Assembly (NCBI RefSeq): GCF_014863405.1
Contig: NZ_JACZZA010000001.1
Location: 930,001-994,000 of the forward strand
From: Dyella acidiphila
GTDB taxonomy: Bacteria; Pseudomonadota; Gammaproteobacteria; Xanthomonadales; Rhodanobacteraceae
Direction of reading: 5' to 3'
Length of the DNA: 64,000 nucleotides
Shown here one piece after another: positions 28,487 to 30,107 of the stretch. Positions within the stretch are counted from its first letter, which is position 1. Each line of letters begins with the position of its first letter. The notes beneath the pieces were generated by a model. It worked only from the letters and a program-made list of their open reading frames with translations. It was not told the DNA's origin and searched no databases. Both the position numbers and the translations under genes were made by a program.

Positions 28487-28756
28487 TCAGGCCGTGCGCT
28501 CCTGCTCGATATGCGCGGACAGGGCATGCAAACTGCTGAAAATACGCTGGTTATCCGGATGGTCCGAGCGCAGCTGCATGCCATAACGCTTGGATACCGC
28601 CAAGGCGATCTCCAACGCATCGATGGAATCCAGTCCCAGCTCACCGCCGAACAGCGCTGCCTGCGGGTCGATCTGCGCCGGATCGATGCCCTCCAGATTG
28701 AGGGCTTCCACGATCAGGGTGGCCAGTTCGTGTTCGGCGGCAGTCTGCGTGGGCAT
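28487..28756 (-). CDS. xanC: acyl carrier protein of the pigment cluster
   Basis: 89 aa, starting at ATG 28756. The phosphopantetheine attachment motif GLDSIDALEIA places the modified Ser at residue 44, and the surrounding acidic four-helix composition is typical. First gene of the minus-strand operon ACP, dehydratase, acyltransferase, hot-dog. Its position next to xanB2 matches the xanthomonadin ACP XanC, so the symbol is a contextual suggestion. An inverted-repeat element lies ~90 bp upstream of its start. Confidence 0.82.
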   Translation of the reverse strand: MPTQTAAEHELATLIVEALNLEGIDPAQIDPQAALFGGELGLDSIDALEIALAVSKRYGMQLRSDHPDNQRIFSSLHALSAHIEQERTA

Positions 28757-28844
28757 GCGTGTTTCGTTGCTCCGGCTGGCGCTGCCAACCCCAGGGCTGA
28801 AGCGGCCGGCCAGTGTAACATAGGGGTCTTGTCGTTCTCGGTTG

Positions 28845-29111
28845 AGAGCCTGCTTATGATCTCTGCACGGCCCGCGCCACGCCTGTTTACCTCTTGGGCA
28901 AGGAGGAGCGAAGGCGTGTATGTCGATACACAACTGAGCGAGGACGCCGCCCAAGAGGCAAACAGGCGTGGCCCTTCGGGTTGCCACGTTGGAGCCGACA
29001 AGCAGCAGCGCGCGGCTTGGCTTGACAGCCAGTCAAGCGCTGCGCCCCGCACTACCACCTGCCCGGCCCAACGTGACAACGCGGGCTATGCAGAGATCAT
29101 AAGCAGGCTCT
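28845..29111. mobile_element. 267-bp inverted-repeat element with nested stems (MITE-like or structured RNA)
   Basis: The ends are perfect 23-bp inverted repeats (28845-28867 and 29089-29111, starting AGAGCCTGCTTATGATCTCT). Pairing extends inward through GCCCGCG (28870-28876) with CGCGGGC (29080-29086). Inside are a 23-bp hairpin with one mismatch (28877-28899 with 28949-28971), a stem of ~16 bp (28980-28996 with 29065-29080), and within it GCTTGAC/GTCAAGC (29020-29026, 29032-29038). The whole can fold as a three-way-junction structure. No credible protein is encoded. It fills the gap between the divergent ACP gene and xanB2. Confidence 0.75.
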
Positions 29112-29114
29112 AGC

Positions 29115-30107
29115 ATGGCTCAGGCAGGCGAAAACCTACAGGTCAGCTCAGGCCTGTCGCGTACCCCGCACATCACCTACCGCATGGCCCAGCCAGAAGT
29201 TGCTCTGGCCGAGTCAGGCACCCTGGCAGCGTTTGGATTCGGTGCGGGCACATCCGACAACGATGATCCCCGCTGGCTTCGAGTTGCCCTGGAAAGCTTC
29301 GATGCCCCTGCGCCGATCGAGCTGTGGCAAGTCGATGCCCCAGTCGTTTGCGGCCGCCAGAACGATGTGCGCTGGTCTGCCGGTGGCGGCTGGCTGTTCG
29401 TCGCCATCGAGGTTGATGAGCAGATGGCTGGCGGCATCGAGCACGCCGCGCACCACGCTTACGCAGCGCTGCGGCAGTTCATGGGCACACGCAACGAACG
29501 CCATGTGCTGCGCATCTGGAATTACATCGGCGACATCAACCGCGGCGATGGCGATGCGGAACGCTACAAGCAGTTCTGCGATGGCCGCGCGGCCGGACTC
29601 GGCGACTTCTTCGCCACCGGCTTCCCTGCCGCCACGGCGATCGGCCACCACGATCGCCAGCGGACGCTGCAGATCTATCTGTTGGCCAGCCTCGATGCCG
29701 GCCAGGCAGTGGAGAATCCGCGCCAGACCAGTGCCTGGCGTTATCCGCGCCAATACGGCCGTACCTCGCCCGGATTCGCCCGCGCCATGCTGATGCCAGC
29801 GCGCGACGTGCTGGCCATCTCCGGCACTGCCGCGGTGGTGGGACACGCCTCGGCCCACGAGGGCAATGTGGAAGCACAGCTCAGCGAAACCCTGACCAAT
29901 CTCGAAGCGCTGCTGACCAGCGCCGGGATGCCGGCCGGCTTCGATACGCACTCCCCGCTCAAGGCCTATGTGCGTCACGCCACCGATGCGGGCCGCGTGC
30001 GCGACATCCTGCAGCAACGGCTGCCCGGCGTGCCGGTGCTGCTGATGCACGGCGACGTTTGCCGCAGCGAATTGCTGGTCGAACTCGACGGCTGGCGCTA
30101 CGCATAA
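29115..30107 (+). CDS. xanB2: chorismatase, 3-/4-hydroxybenzoate synthase (XanB2-type)
   Basis: 330 aa. Resembles the FkbO/Hyg5/XanB2 chorismatase family (once annotated pteridine-dependent dioxygenase): RVALESFDAPAPIELWQVDAPV, LFVAIEVDE, HVLRIWNYIGDIN, GRTSPGFARAML, ISGTAAVVGHAS. In Xanthomonas XanB2 cleaves chorismate to 3-hydroxybenzoate for the yellow pigment and 4-hydroxybenzoate for ubiquinone. It begins 4 bp after the inverted-repeat element, and no clear SD precedes ATG 29115, so an in-frame downstream start (Met24) is possible. Confidence 0.88.
   Translation: MAQAGENLQVSSGLSRTPHITYRMAQPEVALAESGTLAAFGFGAGTSDNDDPRWLRVALESFDAPAPIELWQVDAPVVCGRQNDVRWSAGGGWLFVAIEVDEQMAGGIEHAAHHAYAALRQFMGTRNERHVLRIWNYIGDINRGDGDAERYKQFCDGRAAGLGDFFATGFPAATAIGHHDRQRTLQIYLLASLDAGQAVENPRQTSAWRYPRQYGRTSPGFARAMLMPARDVLAISGTAAVVGHASAHEGNVEAQLSETLTNLEALLTSAGMPAGFDTHSPLKAYVRHATDAGRVRDILQQRLPGVPVLLMHGDVCRSELLVELDGWRYA

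Follow-up and report, generated by a model that had tools for sequence, protein, structure and literature searches.

The window, a stretch of 64,000 nucleotides from Dyella acidiphila, features a 267-nt element that is located between an acyl carrier protein gene and a gene of the xanB2 type. The name xanB2 is that of an earlier note on this DNA, and the Pfam match of the gene (PF21168) is chorismatase-like. The features of the locus are as follows.

28487..28756, minus strand: acyl carrier protein gene (PF00550), whose start is 88 nt from the element
28811..28825, plus strand: CAGTGTAACATAGGG, probable -10 region of the xanB2 promoter
28845..29111, plus strand: whole element, 267 nt, with arm 1 preceding arm 2 on this strand
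28845..28875, plus strand: left side of the outer stem P1, which is the terminal inverted repeat; the conserved end AGAGCCTG is followed by hypervariable, self-matching sequence
28876..28972, plus strand: arm 1, with an outer stem 28876-28899 / 28949-28972
28900..28948, plus strand: conserved arm-1 core, with purine-rich internal loops around the hairpin GTGTAT-GTCG-ATACAC
28973..28979, plus strand: tip hairpin CC(TTC)GG of the three-way junction, with a loop that is inverted both ways within the family
28980..29080, plus strand: arm 2, GTTG...CAAC, whose outer stem is paired but hypervariable and whose core is more conserved
29081..29111, plus strand: right side of the outer stem P1, which terminates in CAGGCTCT
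29115..30107, plus strand: xanB2-type gene, whose ATG is 3 nt beyond the element (PF21168, chorismatase FkbO/Hyg5-like N-terminal)

The element begins and ends exactly where the earlier note had placed it, and the 23-bp perfect terminal inverted repeats described there form the outer part of 32-nt inverted repeats (28845-28876 and 29080-29111) that are 94% complementary. Inside them are an arm of 24 nt (28876-28899 and 28949-28972) that is 96% complementary and an arm of 40 nt (28977-29016 and 29044-29083) that is 70% complementary. The element folds with -172.4 kcal/mol, compared to -103.1 ± 5.4 kcal/mol for 200 dinucleotide shuffles (z = -12.8), and 0 of the 200 shuffles folded as well. The fold recovers the three internal stems that had been described as a three-way junction, and the junction is kept with covariation across the family. 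The remark that the internal pairing goes well beyond that of a usual MITE, and is of a cruciform type, is likewise borne out. In the arm-1 core, repeated tandem G-A pairs are possible, judged by eye, between the Watson-Crick pairs, and on the minus strand of arm 2 a G-U pair is seen by eye at roughly each third position. A short reading frame noticed by eye in the arm-1 hairpin, ATG TCG ATA CAC AAC TGA, was not taken as coding, since the changes in the stem are compensatory (for instance GTG/CAC to GCG/CGC) and do not follow codons. A search for intrinsic terminators returned a sole terminator-like site, which lies within the element on the minus strand.

Further copies, which the earlier note had proposed to look for, were found in 16 of 16 Dyella genomes, with 1 to 23 matching stretches per genome when partial ones are counted; the case that the note had set against its own reading, no second copy in any genome, is not what is observed. 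The host genome carries only one full copy, at xanB2, plus remnants that include an arm-1 remnant (C23:206785) and a collapsed outer stem of ~42 nt (C23:269370). A left-end fragment is possible at C11:21924, where the reversed control of the end pattern also matches once. Search patterns taken from part of the arm-1 core at 28900-28948 matched, with up to 2 mismatches, 42 of the 398 genomes searched across the order, all 42 belonging to two of the twelve families sampled, and the reversed control of the core pattern had no match in the same 398-genome table. A stricter exact pattern, searched in 84,980 species with a single genome apiece, returned 26 stretches, all in Dyella, Lysobacter, Luteimonas or a Lysobacterales MAG. 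The carriers belong to two families of the order and include Dyella, Lysobacter, and Luteimonas. The element itself had no match in plasmids or phages, and the exact core pattern had none in viral contigs.

A total of 156 distinct copies was collected, of which 143 have clear ends; the other 13 were dropped, 6 because no inverted repeat was found and 7 for weak ends. The length is 262-270 nt in 111 of the 143 copies, and the structure counts leave out the 32 bounded copies of other lengths. Two Lysobacter copies, L042:4235-4501 and L042:4824-5090, lie ~0.3 kb apart in opposite orientation. Being short, non-coding, and multi-copy with terminal inverted repeats, the family has the features of a bacterial MITE in the broad sense, which agrees with the resemblance first pointed out in the earlier note. 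The literature on repeats in these genera, on ERIC/YPAL-like repeats, and on hairpin repeats, covered mostly outside the subscription journals, does not describe it among the matches listed, and the family is apparently undescribed before.

At xanB2 all 15 Dyella loci have the sequence CAGTGTAACATAGGG upstream of the site, whether they carry the element or not. This sequence is probably the -10 region of the xanB2 promoter; a promoter consensus scan did not report it. Because it is located upstream of the element, the element should be transcribed as part of the xanB2 leader. The insertion would have occurred downstream of the probable promoter and just ahead of the ATG, and the mRNA should therefore carry a 267-nt folded leader. 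The site is empty in 13 of the 15 xanB2 loci of the genus and filled in 2 (G000 and G004), where the host locus is counted among the 15 and the protein at one of the empty loci, G015, matched only over its first 29 residues. This distribution does not support a dedicated role at the xanB2 promoter of the kind suggested in the earlier note. Empty sites read ..GGTTGCAAGCATG in several genomes, and the filled site of G000 reads ..GGTTG[E]AGCATG, where E is the element. G000 and G004 share the filled xanB2 site and the same unusual outer stem. G000 groups with G002, which has an empty site, in the xanB2 tree (support 0.995) and in the tree of the upstream gene (0.967), and the glnS tree places it weakly (0.377) with G002 and G006; G004 is placed apart from G000 in all three gene trees. 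The shared site could have been inherited and lost elsewhere, acquired by transfer, or filled more than once.

Joining the flanks of ten other copies allowed empty sites to be read at 6 of the 10 further junctions tried. One of these has a split stop codon, which reads GAG-T^AA-GC-ATG when empty and GAAT[E]AGGCATG when filled. At seven aligned sites the occupied and empty forms differ by the element plus 0-2 nt, some of them with junction substitutions. At the glnS/deaminase junction (names by eye) the element or a shortened form is present in 5 of 16 genomes and there is otherwise a gap of a few bases, and here the filled and empty flanks differ by more than 2 nt. It is from such presence and absence between species that the mobility of the family is deduced.

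The neighbours of the copies were determined with a crude codon-usage gene caller that finds 58 genes and 76% coding sequence in the window, and the distances to starts are less reliable than those to stops. Two of the 143 copies lie inside a called gene and were left out; the remaining 141 are located between 107 codirectional, 23 divergent, and 11 convergent gene pairs. A stop codon overlaps the element end in 44 of 141 copies and lies within -3 to +10 nt of an end in 74 of 141, compared to 1.5% and 4.2%, respectively, of the non-coding-plus-stop positions of the window, expectations that are maybe about two times too low since the caller probably gives too little coding sequence. Part of this excess may come from survival rather than site choice. 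Insertion right before a start codon should be costly, which favours a site preference.

Shortened forms were also found. Paired ends are present in 13 of 16 stretches taken as short forms or remnants, and the one-armed derivatives measure 160-163 nt, those that lack a full arm 90 and 62 nt, and mixed ones 121, 132, and 197 nt. The outer stem is well paired in most derivatives and decayed in L277, L286, and L288. In G008 and G006 the stretches L289, L275, L278, and L279 comprise armless forms (62 and 90 nt) and mixed forms (132 and 121 nt), all with a well-paired outer stem. Scars of 7-9 nt, AGGCTCT and AGAGGCTCT, are present at the L216 site in L266 (G006) and L267 (G012), and these are the joined ends of a vanished element. 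The arm losses and scars are what would be left by hairpin-mediated deletion or by REPIN-like excision. Both scars sit between the T and the rest of a stop codon, and another Dyella genome has the full element at this position.

The earlier note had also asked whether the stems show compensatory changes, and these are abundant. In a sequence-only alignment of 40 of the 89 non-redundant full copies, 97.0% of the consensus-structure cells are paired, compared to 78.9% after shuffling and at most 40.2% when the structure is slid, a control that leans toward the structure because the structure derives from the same alignment. Both sides have changed in 75 of 95 pairs (43.9 after shuffling) and in 652 cells (164.6 after shuffling). 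At positions 9-24 of the outer stem, the two ends of one copy are 96.3% complementary and the ends of different copies are 42.5% complementary, and in 85 of 89 copies no end of another copy matches better than the copy's own. The outer part of arm 2 features the same perfectly paired hypervariability, so that the pattern is not merely one of terminal repeats co-evolving with a transposase. Comparison of 11 pairs of copies that occupy the same site in different genomes (10 sites), some of which could be separate insertions, revealed 86 two-sided Watson-Crick changes and 16 other two-sided changes along with one-sided changes to G-U (26), A-C (40), and other states (28).

Many copies, near-constant length, filled and empty sites, insertion without duplication, enrichment at stop codons and tight junctions, shortened derivatives, and covariation characterize this family. 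The preferred reading, with a probability of roughly 0.6, is a non-autonomous family of mobile DNA, similar to REPINs or palindromic MITEs, that is copied and inserted as a two-armed DNA hairpin with a three-way junction. An enzyme acting in trans would recognize the fold together with the conserved ends AGAGCCTG and CAGGCTCT and the arm cores. Template switching between the two sides of a stem at replication would re-copy one side from the other, which would give stems that are perfectly paired yet hypervariable as well as inverted loops, and hairpin formation would also cause the loss of arms and the collapse to a scar. More tentatively, and on balance doubtfully, the family may represent a new class of mobile DNA. 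The moving form would be a branched fold, single-stranded or cruciform, that is recognized by its shape plus short motifs in the ends and arms and not by inverted repeats of fixed sequence. It would insert at the T-A step of a stop codon where stop and start lie close together, without duplicating the target, and template switching would renew its perfect pairing. Several observations stand against the mobile-DNA reading. Of the 33 copies of subfamily G (core GAGGAC) that lie between codirectional genes, 30 point in the direction of the downstream gene (30 vs 3; P ~1e-6), which pure selfish DNA does not predict. The search for a mobilizer among PF01797, PF02371, and PF13358 in the genomes of the genus did not find one, parts of the stems have a mismatch asymmetry, and the tree placement of G000 and G004 and the glnS flanks also count against it.

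The first alternative is an ordinary MITE of a DDE transposon, in which the ends co-vary to fit a diverging transposase, the target duplications have decayed, and the internal pairing is hitch-hiking. The terminal inverted repeats, in which the outer octamer is conserved, the T-A rich junctions, and the many subfamilies are consistent with this alternative, which is nevertheless unlikely. Target duplications, which the earlier note had proposed to look for, are not clearly above chance in 143 copies (2, 2, and 1 at k = 3, 4, and 5, where 2.08, 0.59, and 0.19, respectively, are expected), although the ends are intact, and they are absent from the occupied/empty site pairs. Shifting the boundaries for duplications of TA or TNA gave no clear signal, and the bases at -1 and +1 are identical in 48 of 143 copies, compared to ~41 expected from base composition (mutual-information z 2.6). 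The internal stem of arm 2 is far from the ends and is equally paired and hypervariable, and the two-sided changes between copies at shared sites also argue against this alternative. PF13358 (IS630-type) matched in 1 of 16 genomes, the host's own, and PF02371 (IS110) in 6 of 16, and neither tracks copy number, nor does PF01797. A search of the 16 genomes with the end pattern found pairs ~90-275 nt apart and none at 1-3 kb spacing among the matches listed (into G008), with no autonomous copy among the matches listed.

The second alternative is a structured RNA, a leader or small RNA, that is selected for its fold and spread by transposition, and whose transcript regulates or insulates the downstream gene. 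Many copies are located directly before start codons, the internal loops of arm 1 are conserved and purine-rich, and the orientation of subfamily G is as described above; subfamily T (core GATGAC) is found in the same direction as the downstream gene in 22 of 68 cases and in the opposite direction in 46 (P ~0.005), which argues against this alternative. If one RNA strand were selected, G-U pairs should be tolerated in it and A-C mismatches should not. Mismatch counts in 109 of the 111 copies (2 of neither subfamily were left out), in which inherited states are counted many times, gave an excess of G-U over A-C in inner arm 1 (137 vs 16), which fits an RNA, at the arm-2 tip (90 vs 3), and at outer-stem positions 25-31 (57 vs 20, mostly one column). 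The same counts are near equal in outer arm 1 (16 G-U vs 21 A-C), symmetric at outer-stem positions 9-24 (27 vs 27 among 1744 cells), and reversed in lower and middle arm 2, where 165 A-C vs 22 G-U on the same strand correspond to G-U on the opposite strand. A preference for G-U over A-C on one strand throughout, as expected of a structured RNA, is thus not what is found. That the fold in its entirety is selected as a single RNA, as the earlier note had considered, is not supported, given the symmetric outer stem and the one-sided changes at shared sites, where A-C is the more frequent. Each of the seven loci compared has empty orthologous sites, 13 of 15 in the case of xanB2, and no Rfam family reached its gathering threshold, with four weak matches of which the best has 31.7 bits against a threshold of 90. 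Taken with this evidence, the structured RNA is quite unlikely.

The pairing of the hypervariable stems looks to be kept at the DNA level by template switching and not as RNA, because G-U and A-C are equally rare in the outer stem and the tip loop is found in both inverted forms. The tip loops of the 111 copies include GAA (39), TTC (34), GGA (15), and TCC (7), which are two reverse-complement pairs, and one copy, L229, has an inverted arm-2 loop. In PMC8794818 and PMC8604942, changes on both sides of a stem and inversions of the loop are given as signatures of template switching between inverted repeats, and according to PMC8794818 the two together are rare in rRNA. The preferred reading of mobile DNA leaves the strand asymmetry of the arm cores unexplained, and this asymmetry and the orientation bias are two facts outside it. 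The orientation bias of subfamily G and the G-U excess of inner arm 1 remain compatible with a role as an RNA or in regulation.

That the element is a true REPIN moved by a RAYT (REP-associated Y1 transposase) is very unlikely: the inverted ends, long hairpin, and compensatory changes are as reported for REPINs and GTAG REPs, as are scars that keep the last right-end bases and an element end that supplies stop codons (PMC3116915, PMC3733652), but the ends have no conserved GTAG tag, the element is much larger and branched, and PF01797 (Y1/RAYT-type), present in 13 of 16 genomes, has no match in G011, G013 (86% complete), and G014 despite 15, 6, and 20 element matches.

Among known systems the element appears most like REPINs and palindromic MITEs, but it misses a defining feature of each, namely the GTAG tag and associated RAYT of the former and the target duplication of the latter. 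REPINs and GTAG REPs are, like the element, non-coding, dispersed, and palindromic, with predicted single-stranded DNA hairpins. In PMC3116915 the REPIN stems are described with compensatory changes, which the hairpin of the element shares, and some 6 bp of the right end are described as remaining after excision; in PMC3733652 the REPs are 20-40 bp and the ends of GTAG REPs often supply a TAG stop to flanking ORFs. The element is ~267 nt and two-armed and its ends are AGAGCCTG and CAGGCTCT (AGAGCC), whereas REPIN hairpins are unbranched. ERIC/IRU, YPAL, Correia/NEMIS, and RUP are described as small non-coding intergenic repeats with highly paired transcripts (PMC2229807, PMC10969869), and terminal inverted repeats are found in the element and in most of these. 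The description in PMC2229807 has ERIC, YPAL, Correia, and RUP as mostly < about 200 bp and A+T-rich, with TA termini, target duplications, and one long stem-loop; in contrast, the element has no duplication, is GC-rich, and is branched. A MITE of the IS630/Tc1-mariner type (RUP-like) has a TA duplication and a resident IS630-type transposase, which differs from what is found here. CIR of Caulobacter and Brucella consists of two long inverted-repeat arms plus a linker, and an outer stem closing both arms is not part of its description in PMC2229807, which sets it apart from the element by description alone. Many short palindromes are also reported in Stenotrophomonas maltophilia, which belongs to the same order as the element carriers (a paper cited in PMC3733652).

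If the mobilizer does recognize a branched DNA shape, it would provide a new means of inserting DNA at gene junctions site-selectively and without duplication. The S. maltophilia palindromes, which we take to be those named SMAG, are short GTAG-tagged hairpins, and they contrast with the element by description alone. The inverted terminal repeat of AAV folds into a T, made up of one outer stem plus a pair of small arms, and has inverted forms; it is a viral genome end, and its likeness to the element is in form alone. The family documents with unusual clarity, in nature, how the pairing of stems is maintained while the sequence turns over, with the two-sided changes, few G-U intermediates, and inverted loops that DNA template switching predicts, and it warns that covariation by itself is no proof of a functional RNA. 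In the 3.5-Mb genome G012, at least 16 Y1 transposase genes of 152 aa with near-identical PF01797 scores were observed, which are a probable recent IS200-like expansion.
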